DNA of 33,306 bases from a virus. The stretch is from positions 1-33,306 of IMG/VR virus record IMGVR_UViG_3300017917_001338; one strand, 5' to 3'. Shown piece after piece: positions 9,735 to 25,952 of this stretch. Numbering within the stretch: position 1 is the stretch's first letter; each line of letters opens with the position of its first letter. The notes beneath the pieces are model-generated. The model was not told where the DNA came from. It saw only the letters and a program-made list of their open reading frames with translations, and ran no database searches. The position numbers and the translations under genes are program-made.

Positions 9735-10112
9735 TTAAATTGATTTTAATGTTGATAAAACTATTTCTGCCTCGTCTATACTTCTAATATCTGCTGTGTG
9801 ATACTTTTTGCCAATTTTATTTCCGAGCAACCGATAAAGCACATTCCTATCATATCTTCCACTTTTCCACATTGGGTCAAGTATCGAGTGTATATCCATC
9901 CTCTTATTCTTTATTTCCTGCGTTGCGATAACCCCCAATGGCTTTGTGCGGTTAGTGGTTTTATGATGACAACCGACAAACAATTTGCAGGTGTCACATA
10001 TCCAAAAAGGTAATTTGTATAAATCAGGTCTATGTGGGTACACTTCTGAACCGTCTGTCAACCGAGCCTGTATGTCTTTTGTACAACCGCAGCAATATAT
10101 TTGCTTTTGCAT
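9735..10112 (-). CDS. DUF3268-like zinc-finger protein
   Basis: The protein starts MQKQIYCCGCTKDIQARLTD, with a Cys pair, then LPFWICDTCKLFVGCHHKT with a second Cys pair and His residues, then KPLGVIATQEIKNKRMDIHS and DPMWKSGRYDRN. This ordering (Cys pairs, VGCH, PLG, R..H..DPLW) is that of the DUF3268 zinc-finger-containing family found in phages and bacteria, whose role is unknown. The ATG at 10112 is used in place of an upstream TTG (10130) that would overlap the preceding gene further. Confidence 0.75.
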   Translation of the reverse strand: MQKQIYCCGCTKDIQARLTDGSEVYPHRPDLYKLPFWICDTCKLFVGCHHKTTNRTKPLGVIATQEIKNKRMDIHSILDPMWKSGRYDRNVLYRLLGNKIGKKYHTADIRSIDEAEIVLSTLKSI

Positions 10113-10113
10113 A

Positions 10114-10629: not shown

Positions 10630-10630
10630 G

Positions 10631-10771
10631 TTATTTTCTCTTTACTGTTAATTTCCAATTTATAAACAACGGTATTAACAACCACCAATAACTGTAATCT
10701 CGGTACTCAACGAGCCAAACGAATAAACCGAACCACAATATGTTTAATATAATTAATGCTAGGTATTTCAT
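10631..10771 (-). CDS. Small membrane protein (46 aa)
   Basis: MKYLALIILNILWFGLFVWL is a clear membrane span, followed by a short charged loop (VEYRDY) and a second span SYWWLLIPLFI, then a basic end. It resembles a two-span holin-like or superinfection-exclusion peptide, but it lies in the accessory block, not next to a hydrolase. Function unknown. Confidence 0.65.
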   Translation of the reverse strand: MKYLALIILNILWFGLFVWLVEYRDYSYWWLLIPLFINWKLTVKRK

Positions 10772-10776
10772 ATTAT

Positions 10777-10941
10777 TTAGTGGTTAATTGCAAGCCATAC
10801 AAGTGTTACATCGAATGCAAAAACAAACATAGCCATAAGTATTTTCGAGCGACTATATGTTTCTTTATTAAGGTAATGTGATAATGTGCTACCAAATCTT
10901 GCTCCTTGTATTACCAACCAAATTGTAAATGCGATGTTCAT
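10777..10941 (-). CDS. Small membrane protein (54 aa)
   Basis: The frame MNIAFTIWLVIQGARFGSTL has a hydrophobic start and the C-terminal half ILMAMFVFAFDVTLVWLAI is a second span. The start ATG overlaps the preceding TGA (ATGA), a coupling arrangement. Function unknown. Confidence 0.6.
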   Translation of the reverse strand: MNIAFTIWLVIQGARFGSTLSHYLNKETYSRSKILMAMFVFAFDVTLVWLAINH

Positions 10942-11084
10942 ATAATCTTAAATATTAACTTCGGAAATAATCTCTTTGCTTCTGATAATATATCTTCTTT
11001 ACTTCGTGCTACTGACTTTTGACCTGCTAGTGTGTATATATAGCCCCAACCGCAGGGGATTGCTGTTATGAGGTTGAGTTTCAT
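10938..11084 (-). CDS. Hypothetical small protein (48 aa)
   Basis: MKLNLITAIPCGWGYIYTLA is followed by a basic amphipathic helix (SKEDILSEAKRLFPKL). No family recognised. Coupled by overlap to the next gene and placed just after another short gene, in one transcript. Confidence 0.55.
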   Translation of the reverse strand: MKLNLITAIPCGWGYIYTLAGQKSVARSKEDILSEAKRLFPKLIFKII

Positions 11085-11085
11085 A

Positions 11086-11238
11086 TTATTTATCACACAT
11101 TATTTCAATTTCTCGTAACAAAAACTTTACCAATTCTTTTTTGAGCGATTTATCACCTATTTCTATCTTTTGAGTTTTAACTCCGCCACACTCATCTTCT
11201 TGTGTGATTACTACGCAATACTCTTTTGCTTTTGCCAT
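11086..11238 (-). CDS. Hypothetical small protein (50 aa)
   Basis: MAKAKEYCVVITQEDECGGV is followed by KTQKIEIGDKSLKKEL and a short helix. No family recognised. Its A-rich leader is nearly identical to that of the 59-aa gene upstream (see findings). Confidence 0.55.
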   Translation of the reverse strand: MAKAKEYCVVITQEDECGGVKTQKIEIGDKSLKKELVKFLLREIEIMCDK

Positions 11239-11251
11239 ATATTTTTATTCT

Positions 11252-11431
11252 TTATATGCTGTTAATCTCATCTTCTAACTCCTCAATTCTTTCCATATTG
11301 TATGTTTTATATCCCTCCGCACTGGCATAGCTTCCGTTTTCCTCCATTTCTTTTCTGTCTAAATCTGTTTCTTTTAATCGGTTGATTTCCAACTTTATGT
11401 CAATCAATCTTAATATTTGTTCTTTGTTCAT
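11252..11431 (-). CDS. Hypothetical small coiled-coil protein (59 aa)
   Basis: MNKEQILRLIDIKLEINRLK and a C-terminal NMERIEELEDEINSI give heptad-like helices. The ATG at 11431 is favoured over an upstream frame start at 11464 because it lies just past the preceding stop and has the shared A-rich leader. Function unknown. Confidence 0.6.
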   Translation of the reverse strand: MNKEQILRLIDIKLEINRLKETDLDRKEMEENGSYASAEGYKTYNMERIEELEDEINSI

Positions 11432-11435
11432 ATTT

Positions 11436-11600
11436 TTATTCTTTATATCTGTTAGTAACTTCACCTTTATATTCTGCTAGTAATTCTTTTGGCACAAGTT
11501 TCTTCAATGTGTGCTGTAACTGTCCGTGTTCATCTTCGAGGGTTACGATTTCAGATCCATCTTTACCTGTATCTATTCTCACAATTTTATTTTTATTCAT
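11436..11600 (-). CDS. Hypothetical small protein (54 aa)
   Basis: It reads MNKNKIVRIDTGKDGSEIVT and later LEDEHGQLQHTLKKLVPKEL. First gene after a promoter (-10 at 11635-11640); the 5' leader can form a six-pair hairpin TGTGAT/ATCACA. Function unknown. Confidence 0.6.
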   Translation of the reverse strand: MNKNKIVRIDTGKDGSEIVTLEDEHGQLQHTLKKLVPKELLAEYKGEVTNRYKE

Positions 11601-11634
11601 GTTTATACTTATGTGATATTTATATAATCACACT

Positions 11635-11640
11635 ATTATA
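11635..11640 (-). promoter_or_regulatory. -10 box (TATAAT) of the 8.4-11.6 kb small-gene transcript
   Basis: The hexamer sits in a palindromic TATTATAATA context that recurs at 14430, with close variants at 15835 and 17535. The predicted transcript starts near 11628, 28 bases before the ATG, and the leader has the TGTGAT/ATCACA hairpin. A -35 box is not clear. Confidence 0.45.
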
Positions 11641-11788
11641 ATAACATAAACTAGTACAATAATGCAAAGTTATCCACTTTTTTATAACCAATAGTCCGAC
11701 ACGGATAGTACGGGGATGCACACAAGTTCAACATGAATGAATTTGAATCCGTGCCGGGCTACCAGTTACAAAGTAACCGGTATTTAAT
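11641..11788 (-). other. Non-coding gap with two hairpins after the SSB gene
   Basis: On the minus strand ACCGGTTAC-TTT-GTAACTGGT (9 pairs, one G-U; about 11762-11782) is followed by CCGGCACGGAT paired with ATCCGTGTCGG (11 pairs, one G-U; about 11695-11757) with inner TTCAA/TTGAA. No U tract follows, so these are not ordinary terminators. They could be mRNA 3'-end structures or part of a small RNA. Confidence 0.5.
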
Positions 11789-12634
11789 TTAGAATGGGAT
11801 GTCTTCGGGATTTATTTCATCTTCTGGATAGTCGATTGGTTGGACATCGTCTTGTCCTGATGGAATCTCATCAACTCCTTCAGCAACAGGTGTTTTTCGC
11901 TTTTCAAACTTTTCTTTTCTTACTTTATCTTGTTCAGATAAGATGTCATGCATTTCAATTAAAGCACTATCTGCAATTTTTTGTGTAGTCTCATCAAGTC
12001 TAGTACCTTTAATAAAATTAATGCAGTAATAGGTTTTCTTGCTTTCCTCTTTAATTGCTTTAAGAATAGTTACATGATTTCTGAGGTGCTCATCGTTGGC
12101 ACGATCAAAAGATGCGACATAGGTATAAAATGTATGTACACCATCTTGCTTAGCTTCTGAGCCAAGAGATGCCCCTTTTATGCGTATTTTGACCTTCTGT
12201 GGGCTTTTTCCATCTTCTAATAGCAAACCATACACGATTTGAATTGTACGCAAATTAGGGTACTTTTCACGTAAATTACGGGCACTTGCGATTTCAGTCG
12301 CTTTGCTTTCAGATGTACCAAGTTCTACTACATCATCTGCAGTGTTGTGTTCATTGGTCCAACGAATAACCTTGTCTCCACTTCTCTCTTGCAGTACACG
12401 TCTGATTTTAAGAAACACTACTTTCACCTCTGATCCGAGTTTTACTTCTTCAGGCTTTTCATTTTTCTTTTGTTGAGAAGTTAGAGCTAGTCTAAAATAT
12501 CCACCTTGCGGTACATATTTACCGTTTACTTCCTTGATGTCTCCGTCACCATTGATAGAGAGAGTATCGAGTGTGAGTCTCTTGTTTGAATAATTTGATG
12601 CACCTGTCATTTCGTCTAAGTTTCTTGTTTCCAT
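11789..12634 (-). CDS. SSB-like single-stranded DNA-binding protein
   Basis: The 281-residue protein ends DDVQPIDYPEDEINPEDIPF, an acidic tail with the terminal DIPF of bacterial SSB proteins, which docks repair and replication partners. The body is mixed beta with FYTYVASFDRAND and KTYYCINFIKGTRLDETTQK, plausible as an OB-type fold, but no full family match can be made by eye. Together with the nuclease upstream it points to phage replication or recombination. The start is preceded by the A-rich AAACAAAAAACATGG. Confidence 0.65.
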   Translation of the reverse strand: METRNLDEMTGASNYSNKRLTLDTLSINGDGDIKEVNGKYVPQGGYFRLALTSQQKKNEKPEEVKLGSEVKVVFLKIRRVLQERSGDKVIRWTNEHNTADDVVELGTSESKATEIASARNLREKYPNLRTIQIVYGLLLEDGKSPQKVKIRIKGASLGSEAKQDGVHTFYTYVASFDRANDEHLRNHVTILKAIKEESKKTYYCINFIKGTRLDETTQKIADSALIEMHDILSEQDKVRKEKFEKRKTPVAEGVDEIPSGQDDVQPIDYPEDEINPEDIPF

Positions 12635-12643
12635 GTTTTTTGT

Positions 12644-12784
12644 TTAATTGTTTTTGTTTTGAATAAAAGTTTTAATACCACTAAATACTAACATCAATCC
12701 TAATAGCCACTCCGTATTGCTAACTCTTTCATTTGCTAATACAAGTATACCCAATACCATTTCGATTAATGCGATAGCTTTCAT
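12644..12784 (-). CDS. Small membrane protein (46 aa)
   Basis: Two hydrophobic segments, MKAIALIEMVLGILVLA and TEWLLGLMLVFSGIKTFI, joined by a short charged loop. Located between the exported Cys protein and the SSB-like gene, overlapping neither. Function unknown. Confidence 0.6.
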   Translation of the reverse strand: MKAIALIEMVLGILVLANERVSNTEWLLGLMLVFSGIKTFIQNKNN

Positions 12785-12785
12785 A

Positions 12786-13094
12786 TTACAAGCATTGATT
12801 GATTAGATCGGTTTGTACGCTTTTAGGTAATTCCATTGATTCACCTAATTCTATAATCCCGGCGACACCATACTTACTTTCAAGGTATGTGTACGCACAT
12901 GAACAGAAATCATACATTGCATAATCTCCATCAACACAACCTCCTACAAATTCTGTACGTGCGTAATCAATTGTCGTTTCTGTGTTTGTATCACTAGGAA
13001 CAACCGAATCATTGAAAATAGTATGTACAGTTGACCATACAACTACACCAACAACGATTGATATTGCTACCCACATTTTACTTTTCTCACTCAT
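12786..13094 (-). CDS. Membrane-anchored Cys-rich protein (102 aa)
   Basis: A short N-terminus (MSEKSK) precedes a span MWVAISIVVGVVVWSTV, then an outer domain with GGCVDGDYAMYDFCSCAYTY and a final NQCL. Four Cys could form disulphides outside the membrane. From memory, similar FC.CAY..L patterns occur in small exported proteins of uncultured Patescibacteria; I cannot verify this here. A surface role such as superinfection exclusion is a guess. ATG 13094 is used because the upstream extension is unlikely. Confidence 0.65.
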   Translation of the reverse strand: MSEKSKMWVAISIVVGVVVWSTVHTIFNDSVVPSDTNTETTIDYARTEFVGGCVDGDYAMYDFCSCAYTYLESKYGVAGIIELGESMELPKSVQTDLINQCL

Positions 13095-13152
13095 GTTTTT
13101 TGTATTATTTAATAAATGCAATTATTTATCCGAACTTTGCGAAACGGAGTTA

Positions 13153-13290
13153 TTATTTTGTAAAAATTATATACACCATAAATACTACAAACAATGTTAC
13201 AAGCACCACATCAACGCACTGTCGCATATACACTAATCGTTTTTCAAACATATACATCTTTCTATTACGCTCATTGAAAATGTTTTTCAT
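13153..13290 (-). CDS. Small membrane protein (45 aa)
   Basis: A charged N-terminus (MKNIFNERNRKMYMFEKR) is followed by one span, VDVVLVTLFVVFMVYIIF. The ATG overlaps the nuclease stop (ATGA). Function unknown. Confidence 0.6.
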   Translation of the reverse strand: MKNIFNERNRKMYMFEKRLVYMRQCVDVVLVTLFVVFMVYIIFTK

Positions 13291-14063
13291 TTGTTTTTAT
13301 TTTTTAATTTTTTCTCCCACTCAGGCTTTGCCTTGTTAATATATCTATACAACGTCAACGCTGCTAAAAATGATTCCTTGCAATCGTCAGTATTATATAC
13401 ATACTTAACCTTTCGTTTTGCCTCACCTTTTTTATTAAGATTCTTAGGTATGTTTATAACACAGTAACCCTTCAGATCATTGAGCTTACCAAGTTCTTCA
13501 AAGCAAATATGATACCCTGCCATTTGCAGATAGTTTGTTGAGAATATATCCTTCGCTGTCTTAATGTCACCGATATATTTCTTACCATCTTTTTCAAATA
13601 CAATATCAACCGTACCTGCATACCAATGCTTCTCAGAATAAATCTTTTGCTCAGAAAGTAAAAACTTTATGTTTTCAGTTTCAGACCATTCAATAAACTT
13701 CTCAACCATATTCTTAACCTGTGTGTTTTCATAGATAACAGGAAATGGTTTATTTTGCATTTTACTCTTAACATAATTTTCAATATGGCGGTGTACGATT
13801 TTACCAATATCACCTGCACTATCACGGTTTTTTGACCATGCAGTACGTGCTAGTTTTAATGTGTCCTTTGATACAAGTAACCCATTTGCATCTTTTGTCA
13901 TGTAGTTTTTCTCTACATAATCAATAGCCATATTTGCAGACCATCCAACTAATGCCGGCTTATCAATAACGCCAAGTATAGAAGTAACTCCAGTAAGGCG
14001 AACACCATTTAATTTGTAAATATGTCCTTCATCTGAAAACGTAAAATTATTTTTTGTATTCAT
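13287..14063 (-). CDS. PD-(D/E)XK exonuclease (RecB/Cas4-like)
   Basis: The 258-residue protein holds the nuclease motifs GDIGKIVHRHIENYV (His motif), WYAGTVDIVFEKDGKKYIGD (Asp) and DIKTAK (D.K), then NYLQMAGYHI (the Q..Y helix). This set is typical of phage RecB-like exonucleases used in recombination or DNA degradation. It overlaps the preceding small gene by 17 bases and lies with the SSB-like gene, suggesting an end-processing pair. Confidence 0.9.
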   Translation of the reverse strand: MNTKNNFTFSDEGHIYKLNGVRLTGVTSILGVIDKPALVGWSANMAIDYVEKNYMTKDANGLLVSKDTLKLARTAWSKNRDSAGDIGKIVHRHIENYVKSKMQNKPFPVIYENTQVKNMVEKFIEWSETENIKFLLSEQKIYSEKHWYAGTVDIVFEKDGKKYIGDIKTAKDIFSTNYLQMAGYHICFEELGKLNDLKGYCVINIPKNLNKKGEAKRKVKYVYNTDDCKESFLAALTLYRYINKAKPEWEKKLKNKNK

Positions 14064-14235
14064 GTCCGTTGATTAATTTATAAATTAGTTTTGATGTTCC
14101 TTTCGGATCGTATTGTTTTCCTGTGGCTTTTGTATAACTTTCAAGCAAACCAATTGGTACATTGTGTCCGTGTGATACATACCACTCCATCATTGAAACT
14201 AATTGTTGTATTTCTTTCTTAGTCATTCTTTTCAT
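14047..14235 (-). CDS. Hypothetical small protein (62 aa)
   Basis: MKRMTKKEIQQLVSMMEWYV then YTKATGKQYDPKGTSKLIYK. No family recognised. The start could be M1 (14235) or M4 (14226); both overlap the upstream gene. Overlap with the nuclease gene suggests co-translation. Confidence 0.55.
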   Translation of the reverse strand: MKRMTKKEIQQLVSMMEWYVSHGHNVPIGLLESYTKATGKQYDPKGTSKLIYKLINGHEYKK

Positions 14236-14398
14236 TTTCCATTACTTCGTCACGACCAATATGATAATCAATGTAGTTTTGAGCATCCCATTCAAACTCG
14301 AATCCGTGTAACATTTCTTCATTTTTATAGACAATAAATAACTTCTTATTTTTATCGTGTACTAATCTGTACACACCTTTTTTTAATAATTCATTCAT
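14219..14398 (-). CDS. Hypothetical small protein (59 aa)
   Basis: MNELLKKGVYRLVHDKNKKL then FIVYKNEEMLHGFEFEWDAQ. No family recognised. The ATG 14398 has the same 15-base context as the 173-aa gene (ACACAAACAACATGA). A hairpin TTGCA-GTA-TGCAA lies in its short leader. Confidence 0.55.
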   Translation of the reverse strand: MNELLKKGVYRLVHDKNKKLFIVYKNEEMLHGFEFEWDAQNYIDYHIGRDEVMENEKND

Positions 14399-14430
14399 GT
14401 TGTTTGTGTGTTGCATACTGCAATCACATT

Positions 14431-14436
14431 ATTATA
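14431..14436 (-). promoter_or_regulatory. -10 box (TATAAT) before the 11.8-14.4 kb genes
   Basis: Hexamer in the TATTATAATA palindrome. The predicted start is near 14424, about 26 bases before ATG 14398, with a TTGCA/TGCAA hairpin in the leader. The -35 box is unclear. Confidence 0.45.
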
Positions 14437-14458
14437 ATAGCATATTGTTAGTAATCTG

Positions 14459-14980
14459 TTAAGCAGTTATCCACTGTTGCTGACTGTGGTCACGCCGTAC
14501 AACGTTTTGAATAACACGAAACCCTGTTTGATTATATTTATCATCACCATAAAGACCTTTGAATATAATAGGGTCTGGGTGAATACGTGTCGGGTTTTCA
14601 GTAAAGAACTTAAGTTGTAATTCAGCAACCTGCTTCTTAAAGTCCATTGATTCATCTTCAAGTCTTTTACCTGTCATTGTGTAATGAAACAATTTCACAA
14701 ATCCAAAACGCAACGCCTTTTCTTTTGCTGTTAGTTTACGAATCTGTGCGTGCTCTTTTATATAATCACCTAAGTCTGTATTCTTCTTTGCTGAAACATC
14801 TGGTGAGTATTTTATACTACGAATATCCGAAACCATACCGTGCCACCCATTAATTTCAATTGGGTTGTTACGTTTCTTATCTCGTTGATAGTCTTGCCAT
14901 GCTGATAGCAAACGTGCACCCCTAGTATCTTCTACATCCATTATTTCTTGATCACCTTTCACTTTAATTAAGTATGTCAT
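14459..14980 (-). CDS. Hypothetical protein (173 aa)
   Basis: No family recognised. MDVEDTRGARLLSAWQDYQR then KKNTDLGDYIKEHAQIRKLT; largely helical and basic. Follows the initiator by 11 bases and precedes a promoter, so it is the last gene of the initiator transcript. It could be a replication accessory such as a helicase loader, but no motif supports that. Confidence 0.65.
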   Translation of the reverse strand: MTYLIKVKGDQEIMDVEDTRGARLLSAWQDYQRDKKRNNPIEINGWHGMVSDIRSIKYSPDVSAKKNTDLGDYIKEHAQIRKLTAKEKALRFGFVKLFHYTMTGKRLEDESMDFKKQVAELQLKFFTENPTRIHPDPIIFKGLYGDDKYNQTGFRVIQNVVRRDHSQQQWITA

Positions 14981-14991
14981 GTTGTTTGTGT

Positions 14992-15678
14992 TTAAATTAC
15001 AATAATCTCCATCCCCTTATCACTTTCTAGTTTCTTTTTAATCTTCACCCATTTCTCTTTTAATTCATATGGTGTTGTTACTTGTATCGGATACTCCATA
15101 TTTGCAATCGCCGGCAAGTCCTCCTTGATGACACGAACCACCTCATCGAAACCAAACTCTTTGATTAAGAAATCGCACGCTGAACGTTGGGTCTTGTTAC
15201 CATAGTAGGTTTTGCAAACGGGATTGATGCTTTCAAACATCTTTATTAGTGAGACAATCTGCGAGCTTTCTTGCTCGCCAATATTGTTAGTTTGTTTTAG
15301 TTCTAAATGAGTATAGTTCTCTATGTCGTTTTTGTCCCCACCCCTAGTGTCGTTTTTGTCCCCACCCTGGCGACATAATTCCACTACCCCATCATTTTCA
15401 ACAATTAAAACCTGATAAATGTTAGAGAGGTTCTTCTCACCTTTTTTCCTTATTTGTTTCGTCATCAAACCCTTTTCTATAATCCTTTCCATAGCACGAT
15501 CAACAGTCTTTATTGACATACCGCAGTCTTTTGCTAAACGACTTCTTGATGGAAAGCACCAACCCTCATCATTCACATAGCTACAAATCCACATAAACAC
15601 AGCTTGATCAGATGGTTGCAATCCTTTAATTGCCAACTTATTCGGTACTAATATGAAGTCTCCCTTTACATAATTCAT
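14992..15678 (-). CDS. HTH replication initiator-like protein
   Basis: Residues 20-95 form a winged helix: GLQPSDQAVFMWICSYVNDE, GWCFPSRSRLAKDCGMSIKT and VDRAMERIIEKGLM. This is the helix_turn_helix_36-type domain of phage O/DnaD-like initiators. A low-complexity linker holds two GGDKND units, encoded by two identical 20-bp repeats, and the C-terminal domain (KMFESINPVCKTYYGNKTQR) resembles the partner-binding end of such proteins. In lambda-like phages the origin lies inside the initiator gene, so the repeats may be iterons. It has a long structured leader. Confidence 0.75.
   Translation of the reverse strand: MNYVKGDFILVPNKLAIKGLQPSDQAVFMWICSYVNDEGWCFPSRSRLAKDCGMSIKTVDRAMERIIEKGLMTKQIRKKGEKNLSNIYQVLIVENDGVVELCRQGGDKNDTRGGDKNDIENYTHLELKQTNNIGEQESSQIVSLIKMFESINPVCKTYYGNKTQRSACDFLIKEFGFDEVVRVIKEDLPAIANMEYPIQVTTPYELKEKWVKIKKKLESDKGMEIIVI
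15324..15367. repeat. Two identical 20-bp direct repeats (candidate iterons)
   Basis: The plus-strand word TGTCGTTTTTGTCCCCACCC occurs at 15324-15343 and again at 15348-15367, period 24, in phase with codons (GGDKND twice). Origins of lambdoid and related phages often carry such iterons in the initiator gene. Only two copies are present, so a simple in-frame duplication is the alternative. Confidence 0.6.
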
Positions 15679-15694
15679 GTGTTTATAAATTAAA

Positions 15695-15773
15695 AGTCCT
15701 TTGATTAGAGGGCTGACATATAGGATGATACGATATCCTAATGGGCGTGAACCCTCCCTCTAATCAAAAGACT
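15695..15773 (-). promoter_or_regulatory. Long hairpin in the initiator 5' leader
   Basis: The arms 15756-15773 and 15695-15712 pair over 18 positions (one G-U). The loop holds a second perfect stem TAGGAT/ATCCTA (15721-15740). The 3' arm ends 17 bases before the initiator ATG, so folding could control translation or act as an attenuator (it is followed by a TTTTAATTTAT tract). A further stem CAGTAA/TTACTG lies upstream near 15803-15827. Confidence 0.6.
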
Positions 15774-15834
15774 CTTGATAATTTCGTATCTTAAACTACC
15801 AGTAACTTATAGTCAATTCATTACTGATACTATT

Positions 15835-15862
15835 ATTATAATATAATAATCTGTATTGTCAT
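15835..15862 (-). promoter_or_regulatory. Promoter of the initiator operon
   Basis: Minus strand ATGACA (15857-15862), 16-base spacer, TATAAT (15835-15840). The predicted start near 15828 gives a 150-base leader that contains the hairpins above. This is one of the best sigma70-like matches in the window. Confidence 0.6.
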
Positions 15863-15909
15863 AAAAAGTTATGCACATTTCAAACTTAAGTTTGCTTAAT
15901 TTAGATCAT

Positions 15910-15940
15910 AAATAAAACGCCTGTCGGCATCACAGGTCGT
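15910..15940 (-). terminator. Intrinsic terminator
   Basis: Eight-pair stem with one bulge, loop CGGCATC-like, then TTTTATTT on the minus strand. The mirrored AAAACG side gives a TTTT tract on the plus strand too, so it may work in both directions. Confidence 0.6.
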
Positions 15941-15994
15941 TTTACCACGTTTATTAGTAACCTTATTGTGAATAAAGTTAGACCCTTTCGGGCT
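15911..15994 (-). ncRNA. Candidate small RNA 2 (about 80 nt)
   Basis: A -10 TATAAT at 16001-16006 predicts a start near 15994. The RNA would begin with a GAAA-loop stem (CCC-GAAA-GGG), then TTATT-CAC-AATAA, and end at a terminator: ACG-CCTGT loop ACAGG-CGT with a bulge (15917-15940) followed by TTTTATTT. It carries no frame with a good start. The alternative is a read-through leader with a terminator. Confidence 0.45.
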
Positions 15995-16010
15995 AGTTCC
16001 ATTATACCAA

Positions 16011-16046
16011 ATAAAAAAGGGCATCTGTGCAGAACACATAGCCCTT
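16011..16046 (-). terminator. Strong intrinsic terminator after the three-gene cassette
   Basis: Minus strand AAGGGC...GCCCTT (16017-16046) with inner TGTG/CACA and a six-U tract (TTTTTTATTT). It closes the tiny-gene cassette. Confidence 0.8.
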
Positions 16047-16051
16047 AAATG

Positions 16052-16135
16052 TCATCGTTGGAGGTATTTCCTCCAATAGTACCAACGCCAACGCAGTCTC
16101 CACAAAAGCCATTTCAGTTTGCCTTTGATGGTCAT
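16052..16135 (-). CDS. Tiny basic Trp/Arg-rich peptide (27 aa)
   Basis: MTIKGKLKWLLWRLRWRWYY and a short end: half of the residues are Trp, Arg, Lys or Tyr. It has AGGAG six bases before ATG. Such a cationic, aromatic peptide could bind nucleic acid or the membrane; no family recognised. A TTGGAGG/CCTCCAA hairpin overlaps its 3' end. Confidence 0.5.
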   Translation of the reverse strand: MTIKGKLKWLLWRLRWRWYYWRKYLQR

Positions 16136-16180
16136 TTGCGTCTCCTGTTGATGAATTGATGACGGCGATACAGACACCGC

Positions 16181-16348
16181 CTAGTCTTGGTTTTCATTGA
16201 TAGCCTCCCGACCACCATTGAAAAGCATGAAAAACTCAACCAGATTCTCCATCGACTGTTCCTTTGCAGGATAGTGGGCGGAAAAATCTGCCCTGTTGCT
16301 GACTGAAAGTGCTTGCAACAGTACCCATTCCTTGTCTCTCGTGGTCAT
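16181..16348 (-). CDS. Small protein of the SD-rich cassette (55 aa)
   Basis: MTTRDKEWVLLQALSVSNRA then YPAKEQSMENLVEFFMLFNG. AAGGAGG lies six bases before ATG 16348, favouring it over ATG 16354, which abuts the SD but overlaps the previous stop. No family recognised. Confidence 0.6.
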   Translation of the reverse strand: MTTRDKEWVLLQALSVSNRADFSAHYPAKEQSMENLVEFFMLFNGGREAINENQD

Positions 16349-16350
16349 CG

Positions 16351-16497
16351 TCATCCTCCTTGTGGTTTGCACAACTTGTAAAACTCAAAGAGTTCACTTG
16401 TTGTGGGTTCTCGTTGAAAATGCTCACGGAAGTATTGGCGGTATTGCTCCGACAACGCTTCTTGAAGCATTTGGTTTGTCCATAAATAAAAGAACAT
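16351..16497 (-). CDS. Small protein of the SD-rich cassette (48 aa)
   Basis: MFFYLWTNQMLQEALSEQYR then YFREHFQREPTTSELFEFYK. AGGAGG with 6-base spacing precedes the ATG. It is the first gene after the -10 at 16515-16520. No family recognised; a short helical regulator or inhibitor is possible. Confidence 0.6.
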   Translation of the reverse strand: MFFYLWTNQMLQEALSEQYRQYFREHFQREPTTSELFEFYKLCKPQGG

Positions 16498-16514
16498 AAG
16501 TCACCTCCTCTTAT

Positions 16515-16520
16515 ATTATA
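16515..16520 (-). promoter_or_regulatory. -10 box of the tiny-gene cassette
   Basis: TATAAT on the minus strand; predicted start near 16508, giving an 11-base leader with AGGAGG. The best -35 (TTGATT) is at a short 14-base spacing, so an activator may be needed; the inverted repeat at 16550-16582 is suitably placed. Confidence 0.5.
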
Positions 16521-16549
16521 AACCTTTTTATTGTAATCAAATAGCCGAG

Positions 16550-16582
16550 TTTGTTTACATTGATGATGTGAATGTAAACAAA
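16550..16582. repeat. Perfect 12-bp inverted repeat (possible operator)
   Basis: Arms TTTGTTTACATT (16550-16561) and AATGTAAACAAA (16571-16582) with a nine-base centre. It lies just upstream of the cassette promoter and just after the sRNA 1 terminator, so it may be a binding site for a dimeric regulator. A hairpin role is the alternative. Confidence 0.6.
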
Positions 16583-16612
16583 AAACCGCACTCCCTTCAA
16601 AGGCTTACGGTT
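16577..16612 (-). terminator. Intrinsic terminator of candidate small RNA 1
   Basis: AACCG...CGGTT (16584-16612) with inner CCTT/AAGG, followed by TTTTTTGTTT on the minus strand. The U tract overlaps the inverted-repeat arm. Confidence 0.7.
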
Positions 16613-16660
16613 CTTTGTACCAATCAGTCATTGCTGACTAATCTAGCACTATAAGTGCAT
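16580..16660 (-). ncRNA. Candidate small RNA 1 (about 80 nt)
   Basis: An extended -10, TGATACAAT (hexamer at 16667-16672), predicts a start at 16660, downstream of the terminator that closes the 70-aa gene. The RNA would fold GCACT-TAT-AGTGC (16646-16658), TTAGTCA-GCAA-TGACTGA (16624-16641) and the terminator hairpin. This is a self-contained transcription unit with no good frame. Function unknown; base-pairing regulator or decoy are possibilities. Confidence 0.55.
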
Positions 16661-16676
16661 AAAGATATTGTATCAC

Positions 16677-16702
16677 AAAAAGAAAACCACTATTGCTAGT
16701 GG
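16677..16702 (-). terminator. Intrinsic terminator after the 70-aa membrane gene
   Basis: CCACTA-GCAA-TAGTGG (16687-16702), six perfect pairs with a GNRA loop, then TTTTCTTTTT on the minus strand. It closes the long late transcript of structural and lysis genes. Confidence 0.8.
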
Positions 16703-16711
16703 CGTTCTTAA

Positions 16712-16924
16712 TTAGTCTTTTATACCGTGTACCTTTTTATAATTGTTCCATCTTGCGGCATAATCATTGTATGGTTGTTCAAATATCATTGACTTTATTG
16801 AATCTGCGAAAAGACTAATCAAAAGAAATACAATTACTGGTACACACCAGATTGGTACAGTTACGCATACGATAAATGTTACTATATTTTTTTGTGTGTT
16901 TGTTAGTTTTGTATTCGGGAACAT
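16712..16924 (-). CDS. Membrane protein after lysozyme, candidate holin (70 aa)
   Basis: One hydrophobic segment, VTFIVCVTVPIWCVPVIVFL followed by LISLF, flanked by a basic N-terminus and a charged C-terminus ending HGIKD. It starts four bases after the SLT lysozyme gene and is the last gene before a terminator. Position and topology suit a holin or spanin-like helper; sequence alone does not decide. Confidence 0.6.
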   Translation of the reverse strand: MFPNTKLTNTQKNIVTFIVCVTVPIWCVPVIVFLLISLFADSIKSMIFEQPYNDYAARWNNYKKVHGIKD

Positions 16925-16928
16925 ATTT

Positions 16929-17312
16929 TTATTTTATTTTTCCATAGCACACCCACGCCGTGACTCCTTGTACATCATAAATATGTCGGGCAAGTTTTAG
17001 ATTATCGAGCATATTGTTCTGATAGTCTAAGCCCATTTTTATAGATGTTTCGTGCCACGTTTTACGATTGATTTGCATAAGCCCATAATCGTGTGTCGGC
17101 GAAACTACTACACTACCATCTGCTTTGAATTGTTTTAGACCGCTTTCACATTTCGCTATCGCTACCATCAAATCTGGTTGCTCTGGGAAAGTCTGACGGA
17201 TTAAATCTTCGGTGGATAATTCAACTACTGTTACTGCTAATTCTTCTTGTGGTGCTGGCGTGACTGGTTGCTGGATAAATAAAGCTATTATTGTTTCAAG
17301 TATATGTTTGAA
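16929..17312 (-). CDS. SLT-type lysozyme/transglycosylase without a clear start
   Basis: The core is MVAIAKCESGLKQFKADGSV, with the catalytic Glu in CESG, then THDYGLMQINRKTW and ARHIYDVQGVTAWVCY, as in lytic transglycosylase (SLT) domains. The first ATG in frame (17168; TTG at 17171) falls inside the domain, too late. The frame extends upstream to 17312 through a Pro/Glu linker and IALFIQQPVTPAP, which may be an export or anchor segment, but it has no ATG, GTG or TTG and begins right after an in-frame TAA. Non-AUG start, stop read-through from the 39-aa frame, or mutation are the options. It cuts peptidoglycan glycan strands. Confidence 0.75.
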   Translation of the reverse strand, partial: FKHILETIIALFIQQPVTPAPQEELAVTVVELSTEDLIRQTFPEQPDLMVAIAKCESGLKQFKADGSVVVSPTHDYGLMQINRKTWHETSIKMGLDYQNNMLDNLKLARHIYDVQGVTAWVCYGKIK

Positions 17313-17432
17313 TTAAGGGGCGTTCTGAAATGTGCAGGATACTGAATATGCTCCGACCATTGGACTACGTTTGGCGGTATCAGCCAACTCTAACCTTGCA
17401 TGGTCATATATTTTGGTATCGTAGTTTAACAT
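17313..17432 (-). CDS. Small frame in phase with the lysozyme (39 aa)
   Basis: MLNYDTKIYDHARLELADTA then KRSPMVGAYSVSCTFQNAP and TAA. The lysozyme frame continues directly after this stop in the same phase. It may be a separate small gene, or the N-terminus of a lysozyme reached by TAA read-through. Its DNA mimics part of a tRNA D-arm, which I reject as a tRNA. Confidence 0.45.
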   Translation of the reverse strand: MLNYDTKIYDHARLELADTAKRSPMVGAYSVSCTFQNAP

Positions 17433-17535
17433 ATCCAGTTTTCTACACACTTCTATCCGTATCTCGTGCCGTCTTTATACACCCGACTAGGGTGTGAGGA
17501 CACTGTGCCGTGCTGTAACTACCTACCTGTTATTA
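17433..17535 (-). promoter_or_regulatory. Leader with hairpin before the 39-aa/lysozyme frames
   Basis: A TATAAT -10 at 17535-17540 overlaps the stop of the 37-aa gene. The leader contains ACACCC-TAGTC-GGGTGT (17479-17495). This may give lysozyme its own promoter. No SD is present before ATG 17432. Confidence 0.45.
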
Positions 17536-17649
17536 TTATAACTTATAAAGATACACCCCAAACATAATTAATCCACATATACCGATCACTATTTTACTAT
17601 ACTGAATCACTCTTGTTTCAAAAGCACCAATTGATTTTTCGTCTTTCAT
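17536..17649 (-). CDS. Small membrane protein (37 aa)
   Basis: MKDEKSIGAFETRVIQYSKI then a span IVIGICGLIMFGVYLYKL. Coupled to the previous gene by ATGA overlap. With its neighbour it forms a pair of single-span proteins upstream of the lysozyme, possible lysis helpers. Confidence 0.6.
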   Translation of the reverse strand: MKDEKSIGAFETRVIQYSKIVIGICGLIMFGVYLYKL

Positions 17650-17828
17650 ATATTATGCCGGTTATAAAATTCACTCTCTGAAATTCTTTTTGCTAATTCG
17701 TTATCATACTTTTCACGTTTTTCATCAGTTAAATCTTTTGTCATTGAATAGTATACAAACATATGTATTATGGTAAACGCAAGTATAAATATGGTTATAG
17801 TTAAGATAGCCCCGATTATTTCAAACAT
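17646..17828 (-). CDS. Small membrane protein (60 aa)
   Basis: An N-terminal span MFEIIGAILTITIFILAFTI and a charged helical tail (MTKDLTDEKREKYDNELAKR). It overlaps the 296-aa gene by 13 bases. It resembles i-spanin-like or holin-accessory topology (N-in anchor, helical tail); that is inference only. Confidence 0.6.
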   Translation of the reverse strand: MFEIIGAILTITIFILAFTIIHMFVYYSMTKDLTDEKREKYDNELAKRISESEFYNRHNI

Positions 17829-18706
17829 TTGTTTATTTCATTAAGAGTAACTTTTTTTGGTTTAGGTTCATCTTTAATCATTGCCATACGTTCATCATAA
17901 CTCTTACCAAAGAAATTGTAATCGGTTCTTATGCACACCCAATATGTATCATCCTCATCAAATCCCATTCTTGATACATCAATACTTTTAATTGCATTTA
18001 GAAAAGCATTTCGTATTGTTTTAGAAAAAAGCATTACTGATAATATCCATTGAATTGATTTGAATTTATGCACGACAGTAGTATTCGTATCTCTTTGTGC
18101 CATTAATAACATTAATCGTTTTAATTCCTTTCTTGGATTTGCAATCAATCGTTCCTTACTAGTCTCATTAAATATGTCTTGTATTCTGTAACGATACGCA
18201 TTATCGTACTGGATCATATGTGATACTACACGTGCAAATTGTATGCCAGTATTTATTTCAGTATTCAATCCCATCTCCTCATAAAGGACACATATAAACT
18301 TACGCAACTCTTGAGATAAAGGACATAGGAACTCCGACTTAAATATAAAACCCTCCATAGGACCATATGCAATACGTGTGTAAGCGTCTAAAATGCCCTG
18401 TATTGCACGCAAACGTGCTTTATGCGACATTACACACATAGCTGGAATAAACGCAACAAATGGCATTTTTACAAGTAATTTGACGTTCTCAATAAAATAA
18501 CGCTTTGCCATGTTTGTAGCCCATAATGCTTGTGGATCAGCAAAACCTTTTTGCGGTCTTGGAACTCCTTGTAAATATACGAATATACCTTTGTCAATCA
18601 CAACCTGTTCGGTGGCATAAAACTCACTACTTTCATTTGCGATATTATGTACGGATGGTTGATGTTCGTACATGAACTGTGGGAATCTTGTATTTTTGGG
18701 TGTCAT
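17816..18706 (-). CDS. Hypothetical protein (296 aa)
   Basis: No family recognised. Helical and basic: YFIENVKLLVKMPFVAFIPA, FICVLYEEMGLNTEINTGIQ, LKRLMLLMAQRDTNTTVVHK. The start overlaps the HTH stop (ATGA). Between the peptidase and lysis genes, it could be a late regulator or minor virion protein. Confidence 0.65.
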   Translation of the reverse strand: MTPKNTRFPQFMYEHQPSVHNIANESSEFYATEQVVIDKGIFVYLQGVPRPQKGFADPQALWATNMAKRYFIENVKLLVKMPFVAFIPAMCVMSHKARLRAIQGILDAYTRIAYGPMEGFIFKSEFLCPLSQELRKFICVLYEEMGLNTEINTGIQFARVVSHMIQYDNAYRYRIQDIFNETSKERLIANPRKELKRLMLLMAQRDTNTTVVHKFKSIQWILSVMLFSKTIRNAFLNAIKSIDVSRMGFDEDDTYWVCIRTDYNFFGKSYDERMAMIKDEPKPKKVTLNEINKCLK

Positions 18707-19032
18707 TGAATTATAAACGCATCTTGTTGCATATGCGTGATTGGTTGTTTAAGTGATCTACGAAGTCTCGCAATTTCTGATTTTGCAAACTGCACATTTT
18801 CAGGTTCATACTTTCCGTTCCTTATTTTTTCTTCAATGTGAATTATACTATTAATCAAGTAATCTTTGTAGCATGTTGGCTTTGCTACTTTCTTTGTTTG
18901 ATTAATTAATGCGACATAGTTATATACTGACTTGATACTAATGTTATACGTTCCTGCAATATCTCGCACGTGCACACCACGTGCATACAGCAGTGCTACA
19001 TGATGTATTTCTTTATCATTTAGCTTGGTCAT
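18703..19032 (-). CDS. Helix-turn-helix DNA-binding protein (109 aa)
   Basis: Residues 5-45 read NDKEIHHVALLYARGVHVRD then IAGTYNISIKSVYNYVALIN, a clear HTH as in resolvase/transposase-type or sigma-like domains. A basic helical tail follows. It starts inside the end of the peptidase gene (17-base overlap) and is coupled to the next gene. It may be a late-gene regulator or a terminase-like accessory; position favours regulation. Confidence 0.7.
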   Translation of the reverse strand: MTKLNDKEIHHVALLYARGVHVRDIAGTYNISIKSVYNYVALINQTKKVAKPTCYKDYLINSIIHIEEKIRNGKYEPENVQFAKSEIARLRRSLKQPITHMQQDAFIIQ

Positions 19033-20074
19033 CAGTAATTAATTTATTCATGTGAGTCCGAGTTGCTCGATGAAAGTTTCCAGTACCAGATGTATAACCA
19101 AGTGGTGTTAATATTTCTGCTTTGTAGTGTTCTTGAAATCGAATCACCGCACGAAATGTCTCGCCCAAGAAGTTACCGGTACTTGGTACATCTTTATCCA
19201 TAAATCCAAAATACTTGAGAGCGTCTTGCAGGTGCACAACTTCAGGATTTTTACGCATACCATACGTAAGGTTTACATTAAATATATGAGTTGGCTTATT
19301 TACTTCAGATTGTTGTGATAGTTCAACAACAAAACCAATACCGTGTGTTCGTTTGTTTATAAACTCTTGATCTAACCAGCGTTCCGAGATGCCACCGAAG
19401 TGTGCTGAATCTTCAATCTTTATATACTTCACACCATTGATAAGTCCGTAATCAACACCGGCAATTCCGTGCAATACTGTTGCGTCTTGTATTTGTAGAT
19501 TAGGTGTAATAGGTTTTGGAAACTTTTGCGACCACTCTTCGTGTGTTGCATACACTACAATTGCAACTCCTTGCCCTGATTCCAAAACACTTGCAATCTC
19601 GTCAATGTTTTTTGAAAGTACAAAACCATATTTTTCAGGTTTATATTCTTGAGAAATCTTATCATCTTGTTCATTCCATTTTAATGCCTCCGTTTCTATT
19701 TGTGCATCGCTTTTAAGGAATTGAGATTTGATACGTGATTCAAATGTAACTTTATTTTTATTGCACGCAATGTCGAGTGCATCATTCAACCACATACCTT
19801 TAGGGTTATTTGGATCTAACTTGTTACGTCTCGAGTTGTAAATAGGTGATGCAGAAAATACCTTGTCAGGGTAATTCTTTTCAATCAACTTGGCAATTGT
19901 TTGTGCCATACAAGTATTGGTCCTTGTTTGATTACGTTCTTTGTATGTGAGCCACTTTGTTTTTTCAATCCAATTAGGTGCAGATGAAAATGTTAACTCC
20001 GAAAAGTCAGTGTCTTTTTTTTCATCTCGTTCGCTTCGCTGTGGTATATATGCACCTTGGTATTTTGTATCCAT
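19016..20074 (-). CDS. Papain-like (C1) peptidase with peptidoglycan-binding domain
   Basis: The 352-residue protein has Q49 and C55 in NQTRTNTCMAQTIAKL, the papain spacing of oxyanion Gln and catalytic Cys; H202 in TVLHGIAGVDYG; and D222 in YIKIEDSAHFGG in the place of the usual Asn. Residues ~275-348 form a PG_binding_1 domain: VVHLQDALKYFGF, FRAVIRFQEHYKAEILTPLG and TSGTGNFHRATRTHMNKL. The last phrase is characteristic, in my memory, of Parcubacteria cell-wall proteins. It probably cuts wall cross-links during entry (it follows tail-tip genes) or lysis. No signal peptide is seen. Confidence 0.88.
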   Translation of the reverse strand: MDTKYQGAYIPQRSERDEKKDTDFSELTFSSAPNWIEKTKWLTYKERNQTRTNTCMAQTIAKLIEKNYPDKVFSASPIYNSRRNKLDPNNPKGMWLNDALDIACNKNKVTFESRIKSQFLKSDAQIETEALKWNEQDDKISQEYKPEKYGFVLSKNIDEIASVLESGQGVAIVVYATHEEWSQKFPKPITPNLQIQDATVLHGIAGVDYGLINGVKYIKIEDSAHFGGISERWLDQEFINKRTHGIGFVVELSQQSEVNKPTHIFNVNLTYGMRKNPEVVHLQDALKYFGFMDKDVPSTGNFLGETFRAVIRFQEHYKAEILTPLGYTSGTGNFHRATRTHMNKLITDDQAK

Positions 20075-20084: not shown

Positions 20085-21107
20085 TTAAGAGAACTCAGTA
20101 TTCTTTTCAATAATTGATAGACCTGCTGGACCATTAGCACCAGAAGCTCCCGGACTAAATGAACCTGCATTACCTGCCTGATAATTTGCACCACTTCCAC
20201 CTGAATATCTAGTACCGGTTGGTGTTGAACCCGCAGCAAATCCTGTGTTACCTGTTCCACCAGATGTTGTCACCGTTCCTGATGCGGATGTTAAAGAGTT
20301 ATAACGCATACAAAAGAACCCACCAGCACCTCCTCCAGATCCAAATACGTTATAGTTTGACCCAGTAAAACTTGCAGCACTTGGTGAACCCCCAGCGACT
20401 GATATACCACTAGCTGTTGTAAAGTTTAATGCACCTGCACATTCAATAAATAGTGTACCACCTCCACGCCCTCCGTTTGATGAAGTTGCTGTACTTGTTG
20501 TTCCTGCTTTTGCAGCACCAGAAGCTCCTCCTGCTGCAACAAAGGCTGTTGGATATTTACTTGCTAAAAGTGACAGATAAGTTGACGGGTATGCAATAGT
20601 GGCAGCGGATGCAGTAGCACCATCATTTGTACCTTTATTTGTTGTTGGTAAGAACGTGAAGCACTTTCCATCCGTACCATTACTACCATCACTCTGTGAT
20701 GATGCTCCAACAGATACTCCAGTACCACCAATTGCACCTAATGCACTAGCATTAATCATTGGTGCTGTCGATGAAGTTAATGTAACATTACCAACACTTT
20801 TTAGAATTACAACTGTCCCGTTTGCGTGTGGGTTTGAAAAAGTAAGTGAACCTGTCCCAGTAATTGAAATAGATGAGTAGTTTTTAATAACGACCTGAGC
20901 ACTTCCTAAGTCAATGTTAGTCGCACCAGATGTAATTGTAAGAGCACCATCCGATCCGTCACCACCAAACTTAAAAGAACGCTTGAAAAATGTCTCGCTT
21001 AAATATCCTTCCGAACCTAACTTTGGTGCTTTACCGCTATCACCTGCACCTGCACTCGTTGTTACAAAGTCTCCTTGTACTACTGTCTCTCCGTTTAATA
21101 ATCCCAT
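20085..21107 (-). CDS. Gly/Ser-rich tail-tip or fibre protein (340 aa)
   Basis: The N-terminus VQGDFVTTSAGAGDSGKAPK then LGSEGYLSETFFKR is like tail-fibre attachment regions. The rest is low-complexity beta structure with many GG pairs (NGGRGGGTLFIECAG, FGSGGGAGGFFCMR) and ends PAGLSIIEKNTEFS. It resembles Gly-rich phage adhesins. It precedes the peptidase gene with an identical 18-base start context. Receptor-binding role is inferred. Confidence 0.7.
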   Translation of the reverse strand: MGLLNGETVVQGDFVTTSAGAGDSGKAPKLGSEGYLSETFFKRSFKFGGDGSDGALTITSGATNIDLGSAQVVIKNYSSISITGTGSLTFSNPHANGTVVILKSVGNVTLTSSTAPMINASALGAIGGTGVSVGASSQSDGSNGTDGKCFTFLPTTNKGTNDGATASAATIAYPSTYLSLLASKYPTAFVAAGGASGAAKAGTTSTATSSNGGRGGGTLFIECAGALNFTTASGISVAGGSPSAASFTGSNYNVFGSGGGAGGFFCMRYNSLTSASGTVTTSGGTGNTGFAAGSTPTGTRYSGGSGANYQAGNAGSFSPGASGANGPAGLSIIEKNTEFS

Positions 21108-21623: not shown

Positions 21624-23036
21624 TTATCCCATTGTAAAGAAACCAACAATTGCAGTTGATCCAACATAGTATGGTGGTGATGTTGTGACTGGTGTATCCA
21701 CCGAATCTGTTACTGTAAGTGATTCGTCAGATTGTTTAATGCGAGCAACCACTTCATCAGCGGAAATATCAATACTGTCGCTCGGATTCTTTACTAGCAA
21801 CTTGGTAAGTATGTCATTAATACCAATATCATCAGCTGTGGTACATTCCATTTCGTGAGTTAATTCATCAGTATCAGGTGTCTTCAAATATGAACGTATT
21901 GATTGGATCTTAAAGTTTTGACTAATATTACGAATTGTACTTTGTATATTTATAATCTGTCCTGTTGCAAATGTATTTGCATAAGTTGTAAAATTAGCAG
22001 TCTTTAATGGCTGGCTATATTTTATCAATTCTGCTCTTGCACGTAATGTAGCAGTATCCAGGTCACGAATTGTCTTATCAATAATTATGAATTGATATAA
22101 TCCGTACAATCCTACACTGTCCTCGTCACGTCTTTGTAATATAAGAGGATACTGCGGATACTGTGTTACAACAATATTATTTGTACCTGCTGATGGTGCA
22201 GATGCAAATTTCAATGACTTCTCATTGTAGTTCCACAATGCAGTAAATGAAGCCGGGTTATCCAAGAAGTCTACACCAACTGTAATTGGTGATCCGTTTA
22301 CTGTAACAGTTGGCAAGTTTGCAAACTTCGTAGCAAGAGGAAAAATCAAACGTGTACCATCACCTGACCAATACTCAGTCCGTAATGTTTCGCCAGTAAG
22401 TAATCCACCACGTACAATGATTTCATTACGCAATTGATGTGTATCTTCACGTACAACAAGAGAGTTATATACATAGTTACCTGAAGTGTCAGTCAAACTA
22501 ACTGTCGATGTGTCAGCATCAACAAAAAAGAAATGTATGTCTTTGTTATAGTCAGCATACCAATCATACCCACTAACAATTTCTGTTAGCTTTTGTAAAC
22601 ATTGAGAGACAGGTAAATAGTTGAATTGAATCTTCTCAATTTCAACTGCACACGAAACGTTCGTATACGTAAAGTCAGGTGCAAACGTATCAATCAAGTC
22701 AGCGATAATATCATCGACCGTTTGATTATTGTATGTCTTTGAAACCAAATATCTATCGAGAGTTTGAGTATAATCTTTGCAAGTTATCTTTAAGTATTCG
22801 ACACGCCCATCGACTTCTTCTTCAATTTCAATAATGTAACCTCCAAATTCCTTAGTTGCACCGACTGTCAAAACGACCTCATCACCTGCCAATGGCTTAT
22901 AGGTTTGACCATTGTGACGCTTGATAAGAAAAGTCAAAGAGTTAGGTTCTCTTGTAAGTACCTCCTCTCGCTTAACTGATTTCCAGTTTACGATACTTGC
23001 TTTATTTACTCCGCCTATCGTAAGTGTTGTTGCCAT
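21624..23036 (-). CDS. Tail hub/baseplate protein (470 aa)
   Basis: The N-terminal half (EVVLTVGATKEFGGYIIEIE, then ITCKDYTQTLDRYLV and NQTVDDIIADLIDTFAPDFT) is the gp27-like hub wording of siphovirus tail proteins downstream of the tape measure. The middle contains YDWYADYNKDIHFFF and the C-terminal part is beta-rich with LRARAELIKYSQPLKTANFT. It probably forms the ring at the tail tip that joins tube and fibres. Confidence 0.82.
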   Translation of the reverse strand: MATTLTIGGVNKASIVNWKSVKREEVLTREPNSLTFLIKRHNGQTYKPLAGDEVVLTVGATKEFGGYIIEIEEEVDGRVEYLKITCKDYTQTLDRYLVSKTYNNQTVDDIIADLIDTFAPDFTYTNVSCAVEIEKIQFNYLPVSQCLQKLTEIVSGYDWYADYNKDIHFFFVDADTSTVSLTDTSGNYVYNSLVVREDTHQLRNEIIVRGGLLTGETLRTEYWSGDGTRLIFPLATKFANLPTVTVNGSPITVGVDFLDNPASFTALWNYNEKSLKFASAPSAGTNNIVVTQYPQYPLILQRRDEDSVGLYGLYQFIIIDKTIRDLDTATLRARAELIKYSQPLKTANFTTYANTFATGQIINIQSTIRNISQNFKIQSIRSYLKTPDTDELTHEMECTTADDIGINDILTKLLVKNPSDSIDISADEVVARIKQSDESLTVTDSVDTPVTTSPPYYVGSTAIVGFFTMG

Positions 23037-24968: not shown

Positions 24969-25952
24969 CTAATAACTTGCAACGTCGTTAACTAATACAC
25001 ACTCAACCATTTTTGAATCTGCGATTGAATAAAAACCTTCAAAATTAACTGTTTGCATTACAATTTCATCGTTACCAATTGACTTTGCAACCTCTTGGAA
25101 TTTAATCTTGTTGAAATTAAAAGTAATGCTTGGGTTCGTTGATGCACCAATTGTCTTGTTAGTGTTTGTGAACTTAATTTGCAAAGCACGTGATAAGTTT
25201 GCAAGCATATAAGTGTCAGTAAATGTACGTGCATCATATACTAATTCCATTGAGCCAGTTACTTGGAACTGTCGGTTTAATCTGTCTGTGACTGATACTG
25301 AGCCAATGTTGTGATCGTCTTCAACGTTCTTTGAAATGTTGACATTAGCCTTGCGGATTGATACTTCTGTACCAGATGAAAGGTTTGCATATGTATCTGC
25401 GATTTTAATAACTCCATCTTGTGGTCTGAAGTTGTCAGGTGCAGTATATGAAACGCTTGCGGTTGTCGAACTAGTGATGTTCGATATGAATCCGAATGAG
25501 TATGTAGGATACTGTCCTACTTCAAAATTAAGTTCAAGCGAATCAATAACAGTAAGAGGGAATCGGAGTGAAGATGAACCTGTAGCATTTGGCTCTGAAA
25601 CATTAACTGTCAATGATTGGTGTTGTGCTGATTGAGCAACGGTGAATGTGTGAGTATATGCACTGTCAGATGGTCCTGATGTGTTTACAGTTCCGAAAGT
25701 TGAGTATAAAACAAGTCCAATAGTATCATCGTTGACAATACCTGTGAGTGAACCTTCAGCAAATTTCTTTACTACATCCGCATCTGTTTGATTTTCAATA
25801 ACACCCATTACGCTCTCATCTTTTACTTGCTCAATTTTTTCATCGAAAGTAAGCTCTGTATGTGGCAACCAATATGTAGAAGCAACACCTGTGCCTCGCA
25901 CACTTTCTTTACCAATCCCGATATTGTATTTTCTTCCTATAAATTTGCTCAT
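24969..25952 (-). CDS. Major tail tube protein (327 aa)
   Basis: Begins MSKFIGRKYNIGIGKESVRG then TGVASTYWLPHTELTFDEKI, the start of many siphovirus tail tube proteins. Beta-rich body with SLELNFEVGQYPTYSFGFIS and RQFQVTGSMELVYDARTFTD. Placed directly before the G/GT chaperone and tape measure. Hexameric rings of it form the tail tube. Confidence 0.87.
   Translation of the reverse strand: MSKFIGRKYNIGIGKESVRGTGVASTYWLPHTELTFDEKIEQVKDESVMGVIENQTDADVVKKFAEGSLTGIVNDDTIGLVLYSTFGTVNTSGPSDSAYTHTFTVAQSAQHQSLTVNVSEPNATGSSSLRFPLTVIDSLELNFEVGQYPTYSFGFISNITSSTTASVSYTAPDNFRPQDGVIKIADTYANLSSGTEVSIRKANVNISKNVEDDHNIGSVSVTDRLNRQFQVTGSMELVYDARTFTDTYMLANLSRALQIKFTNTNKTIGASTNPSITFNFNKIKFQEVAKSIGNDEIVMQTVNFEGFYSIADSKMVECVLVNDVASY

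Follow-up and report, generated by a model that had tools for sequence, protein, structure and literature searches.

A complete tailed-phage genome of a probably Patescibacteria-infecting lineage, with a papain-fold candidate lysin and a CPR-type lytic transglycosylase-like protein

We analysed the virus record IMGVR_UViG_3300017917_001338 over its whole length of 33,306 nt (hereafter, the window), and in particular two putative cell-wall enzymes encoded on its minus strand: a papain-fold protein with a peptidoglycan (PG)-binding end, and a soluble lytic transglycosylase (SLT)/lysozyme-like protein. Our results indicate, with a probability that we put at roughly 0.85, that the window is a complete tailed phage of a lineage infecting Patescibacteria (Candidate Phyla Radiation, CPR), and that the papain-fold enzyme and the CPR-type SLT form its lysis or wall-entry equipment. 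Patescibacteria are tiny, mostly uncultured bacteria, and nearly all knowledge of their phages comes from sequence data, as a rule by way of rare CRISPR spacers. In the present case, a probable host was assigned from the type of the wall enzymes and from syntenic proviruses; the many contigs of this lineage recovered here could be treated in the same way.

The record carries a 99-bp direct terminal repeat and is for this reason taken as complete. Nearly all genes run along the minus strand. Pfam and PHROG identify genes for portal, terminase, capsid, tape measure and tail; judging from its sequence, the window represents the entire genome of a tailed phage with an HK97 capsid and a tape-measure protein. 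The genetic code is standard: TGA terminates 8 of the 33 genes, which rules out the alternative code of Gracilibacteria and Absconditabacteria. Both enzymes lie on the minus strand where the initial annotation had placed them, and they contain exactly the motifs from which it had guessed a Patescibacteria host (EILTPLG.TSGTG in the first, CESG.KQF..DG and DYGLMQIN in the second). The features concerned are as follows:

19016–20074, minus strand: 352-aa protein with an N-terminal papain-like peptidase and a C-terminal PG_binding_1 domain, candidate endolysin (Pfam, AlphaFold and PDB fold matches, family alignment)
19319–19927, minus strand: papain-fold catalytic domain, aa 50–252, with Cys55, His202 and Asp222 (Asn there in papain); the oxyanion Gln49 stands just ahead of this range
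19019–19309, minus strand: PG_binding_1-type domain (PF01471), aa 256–352, containing EILTPLG.TSGTG; matches the CtpB and SleB structures and is common in CPR genomes
16929–17309, minus strand: 126-aa open frame with an SLT/lysozyme-like domain (PF01464), to which CPR homologs align from the linker onward; catalytic Glu codon at 17145–17147

The annotation had likened these wordings to ones specific to Parcubacteria-like genomes, and our tests of the wall enzymes agree. About 85,000 species, one genome each, were searched with a degenerate DNA pattern encoding CESG..QF..DG, and the matches were read in frame. Seven of the eight matches are real SLT genes, and six of these belong to Patescibacteria (Parcubacteria, Doudnabacteria, Levybacteria and, three times, Zambryskibacteria). 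The seventh lies on an 11.4-kb contig (JAGWFS010000022.1) of a 'Thaumarchaeota' metagenome-assembled genome; its SLT gene is of CPR type, and the contig is probably a mis-binned CPR contig. The eighth match, in Acidobacteria, is due to chance. Among the scan matches the closest to the window SLT is the Doudnabacteria protein (35% over 103 aa), which also bears a PG-binding-like sequence, and two CPR proteins found later score about the same. One more SLT gene, on contig G004 (L042/L048), is of a different SLT type and was left aside.

Profile searches were performed on 380 CPR genomes, with 247 Acidobacteriota genomes as a control. The SLT profile matched 17 CPR genomes against a single one of the control; its best CPR match reaches 1e-53, but for a sequence that is itself part of the profile; a genome outside the profile reaches 3.5e-38. 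The peptidase/PG-binding profile matched 98 CPR genomes (best 6.7e-28) against four Acidobacteriota (best 1.4e-7), nearly all of the 98 through the PG-binding half and often several times per genome. By sequence comparison, the wall enzymes of the window are hence most like those of CPR.

We also compared the structural genes of the window with those of other viruses and of integrated proviruses. The genes on which this comparison relies are:

28485–29666, minus strand: HK97-type major capsid protein (PHROG 10, 7.8e-45), the search marker for relatives and CPR proviruses
2565–4586, minus strand: portal-MuF fusion (PHROG 2662, 3e-121), the basis of the tree
24969–25952, minus strand: tail protein, probable tail tube, with 33–38% identity to CPR proviruses versus at most 25% over the full length in isolate phages
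21624–23036, minus strand: baseplate/distal tail protein, with 36–38% identity to CPR proviruses

Searches with portal and capsid recovered about 40 IMG/VR contigs of the window lineage. Furthermore, the capsid profile found four CPR genomes with E-values from 2.7e-54 to 7.8e-77, the best match in the Acidobacteriota control being 7.6e-25. All four (G177, G189, G233 and G249; loci L095–L100) contain proviruses that are colinear with the window: portal, protease, capsid, connectors, tail tube and tape measure are common to all of them, as is the baseplate wherever the contig stretch examined extends that far. Host genes, named from their translations, are visible on both flanks in two of the four. 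In G177 (263-kb contig), secA lies upstream of the provirus, and an integrase, UDG, M1 aminopeptidase, secD and secF lie downstream; in G189 (74.5-kb contig), GAPDH is found on one side and an integrase, rpiB, rpe and transketolase on the other. These two proviruses differ from the window in having an integrase, none being recognised among the window genes, and in the C-terminus of their lysin, which is M23 or DUF5675 and not PG_binding_1.

Identity between the window and the CPR proviruses is about 30–38% in most proteins, rising to 52% over part of the protease. When bit scores were compared at equal database size, the CPR proviruses exceeded the best isolate phage for the portal (252–313 versus 210), the tail tube (191–215 versus 55) and the baseplate (241–258 versus 112). 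The portal tree groups the CPR proviruses with the window clade, separate from the isolate phages, with 100/100 support.

Patescibacteria are the most likely host of the window phage itself because the nearest counterparts of its wall-enzyme and particle genes are genes and proviruses inside this phylum; the wall-enzyme searches and the four colinear proviruses thus lend support to what had been a guess from motifs. A number of observations weigh against this reading. The profile searches used one control phylum only; the portal tree has long branches, and the only proviruses in it are those from CPR. At 30–38% identity to the CPR proviruses, the host could have shifted. The portal profile, run over the same approximately 85,000 species genomes, gave 168 pattern matches and no close relative. 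A spacer search of bases 1–20000 against 44 CPR genomes, which is a small test, gave only short, chance-like matches, the best of them (in G038) outside any repeat array. Finally, the terminase has its best isolate matches in phages of Bacteroidota (Bacteroides and Parabacteroides), at 36% (35–37%), and finds no match in the four CPR proviruses.

These terminase matches, together with the best isolate match of the portal (Geobacillus phage GBK2, 29%), are what a host in another phylum, for example in a Bacteroidota or Firmicutes lineage, could call upon, the wall enzymes having then been acquired from CPR or being of an old common type. We consider such a host improbable: it is the whole structural module, beyond the enzymes, that is closest to proviruses in CPR chromosomes, and PG-binding type, SLT type, capsid, tail and baseplate give the same answer, CPR. 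Alternatively, the phage might infect a bacterium that carries a CPR cell, and its CPR-like enzymes would attack or pass the epibiont. Indeed, CPR cells live attached to other bacteria, and some phages carry enzymes of neighbours. On the other hand, relatives of the window sit within CPR chromosomes, flanked by housekeeping genes, and we regard a carrier host as very improbable, leaving infection of Patescibacteria as the preferred reading.

The two halves of the peptidase were assigned by profiles, fold and alignment. Its C-terminal half passes the PF01471 PG_binding_1 cutoff (26.7 bits, cutoff 23), whereas PF00112 Peptidase_C1 stays under its own (17.1 bits, cutoff 20.7), a point against a papain-like identity; this same cutoff is exceeded in the relatives L029 and L047 and in the proviruses L096 and L099. 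An AlphaFold model of modest confidence (5-sequence input, mean pLDDT 62) resembles papain-like proteases over residues 50–252 (xylellain, Z 12.4 over 160 residues, VIA-align), as also found with Foldseek (E 3e-5, probability 1.00), and PG-binding domains over residues 255–352 (CtpB, Z 12.6; SleB, Z 11.7). Cys55 and His202 are invariant in the nine aligned sequences (the window and eight relatives), and Gln49 is present in most. The position of the papain Asn is occupied by Asp222 in the window and its close relatives, and by Asn in the CPR proviruses. A single-sequence search of GenBank phages and IMG/VR found no close relatives of the peptidase. The pseudomurein endoisopeptidase PeiR and the CHAP endolysins also have a papain-like fold and a Cys-His pair that cuts wall peptides. 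They are outside the C1 family, however, and the window model fits C1 proteases as well or better (xylellain Z 12.4 versus PeiR 11.1). Where a survey of papain-like peptidases takes up phage lysins, it treats them under CHAP-type and pseudomurein groups (PMC10318531).

The initial annotation held that a papain-type peptidase joined to a PG-binding domain is unusual in phages. The papain-like domain is indeed rare elsewhere, but it recurs in the window lineage. It is joined to PG_binding_1 in six IMG/VR relatives (L014, L019, L029, L047, L054 and L008), and in the two of the four proviruses whose lysin slot was examined it is fused to an M23 peptidase (G177) or to DUF5675 (G189). L021 and L023, two contigs that belong to the capsid lineage but are more distant, instead carry an Amidase_2 fused to a domain of the PG_binding_1 kind. 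By analogy, such swapping of catalytic and anchoring halves is the pattern of endolysins, and this is why we read the papain-like protein as a putative wall endopeptidase and the SLT as its glycan-cutting partner. From their domains and gene slot we infer that both enzymes cleave peptidoglycan and act in lysis, including their activity and timing. As infection comes to its end, the SLT would cut the glycan strands and the papain-like enzyme, through Cys55, His202, Asp222 and the oxyanion Gln49, would cut the peptide cross-links while its C-terminal PG-binding domain holds it on the wall. A papain-fold cysteine enzyme with a CPR-type PG-binding anchor and a CPR-type SLT/lysozyme would thus make up a lysis or wall-entry set.

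In a serious rival reading, lysis is left to the SLT alone, and the papain-like protein, instead of being an endolysin, is a virion-borne or baseplate-associated protease opening the wall at entry, or else a protease for the maturation of particle or host proteins. The papain fold is also that of true proteases. Moreover, the peptidase gene adjoins a fibre-like gene (20085–21107), and in L029 it lies directly behind a fibre gene and a coiled-coil membrane gene. We nevertheless hold this rival to be less likely. The PG-binding domain targets the wall, and the PG-binding parts of the relatives are matched by endolysin families of PHROG. In addition, an Amidase_2 stands beside such a PG-binding domain in the wider capsid lineage, and an M23 peptidase is the fusion partner in one CPR provirus.

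Keeping the endolysin reading, we tentatively propose, at rather less than even odds, that this Patescibacteria phage lineage has a C1-papain-type endolysin, with Asp for the usual third residue in some members and a C-terminal half swapped among PG_binding_1, M23 and DUF5675. If true, this would be a type of wall-lysis enzyme adapted to CPR cells, of which we found no description among phage lysins. The candidate papain-like lysins are short, concrete enzymes that could serve as tools to open or kill CPR cells; to our knowledge, hardly any genetic or lytic tools exist for this phylum.

The minus-strand stretches 31147–31593 and 30882–31142 of the window hold a weak match to amidases of the permuted papain-like type (C92, E 0.02) and, beside it, a coiled-coil protein whose C-terminus forms one membrane helix. 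Coiled-coil membrane genes of a similar kind lie upstream of the lysin in L008, L029 and L099, and upstream of the amidase in L021. These coiled-coil membrane proteins may be holin-like partners of the lysin.

The SLT frame passes the PF01464 cutoff (25.5 bits, cutoff 21.3) and has the catalytic Glu (ES in CESG). By ATG, GTG or TTG start its open reading frame (ORF) would comprise 16929–17171, but the frame is open back to 17309. The listed start is not real, as the domain begins upstream of it, where no ATG, GTG or TTG is found. Two features lie further upstream:

17310–17550, minus strand: non-coding, stably folded stretch of about 240 nt between the membrane ORF and the SLT frame, with stops in all three frames
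17536–17649, minus strand: 37-aa membrane-helix ORF (MKDEKSIG...LYKL), seen from the reading frames and from likeness to LyZ1

The homologous LyZ1 protein of a Manatee Spring phage, to which we return below, has an N-terminal membrane helix followed by a linker, and by this analogy the 37-aa ORF could possibly be the missing N-terminus of the SLT protein. The region 17310–17660 (minus strand) looks like an SLT gene split by an intron or another unusual expression signal. Folding of 17310–17550 gives z-scores of −3.8 to −3.9 versus dinucleotide shuffles in the best registers and weaker ones in other registers; elsewhere in the window genome, z-scores are as low as −4.2. A group I or group II intron, a tmRNA or a known riboregulator was rejected for this stretch, with no Rfam match above chance even at E up to 10. 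No tRNA or tmRNA was found in it, blastn among phages returned no relative, and it could not be aligned with the closest SLT genes of viral contigs, which are too distant.

Between the two wall enzymes lie a gene of unknown function (17816–18706), a 60-aa membrane ORF and the following gene:

18703–19032, minus strand: helix-turn-helix DNA-binding protein (PF02796/PHROG 4151), downstream of the peptidase gene in L019 and L029 too

Outside the wall-enzyme genes, a stretch of about 1 kb at 15700–16710 (minus strand) has no ORFs other than tiny ones and is a possible control region; its hairpins include terminator-like ones and an imperfect pair (TCTTTTGATTAGAGGG ... CCCTCTAATCAAAGGA). In the relative L003 (IMGVR_UViG_3300001097_001725), the terminase large subunit (484–2385) has an intein-like insert, with Cys first and ending ...VVVKN|C, inside which a 177-aa HNH-type endonuclease ORF (1740–2273) lies in another frame; L004 is similar. 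L005 (~4734–7635) and L006 (~2596–5497) each contain two copies of the N-terminal part (~208 aa) of their counterpart to window 599–2584, which suggests duplicated receptor-binding genes.

Complete phages of CPR were few according to the initial annotation, which is no longer so: three Roizmanbacteria phages of 30.8, 31.8 and 34.7 kb are complete and were found through spacers (PMC6509639), an Absconditicoccaceae phage has 39 kb (PMC13059738), and 644 groundwater Patescibacteriota viral operational taxonomic units range from fragments to complete genomes (PMC12911398). Since complete CPR phages of similar size are already described and hundreds are predicted, the host proposed here would be a further case of a known kind, and the more surprising element is the C1-like lysin. 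Likened by description and not by sequence, the Roizmanbacteria and Absconditabacteria phages (PMC6509639, PMC13059738) likewise have complete circular genomes of 31–39 kb and CPR hosts; they differ in that spacers or an altered genetic code served to assign their hosts, the window having the standard code. The pair of wall enzymes itself has a counterpart in Caudoviricetes sp. ctPCi537 from Manatee Spring (GenBank MW202577, 39.6 kb), in which a protein of peptidase-PG_binding_1 layout and the SLT protein LyZ1 lie ~0.6 kb apart, as a pair like that of the window. The enzymes of ctPCi537, which has no recorded host, share 27–30% identity with those of the window, and it has no match to the window portal, capsid, tail-tube or baseplate protein.

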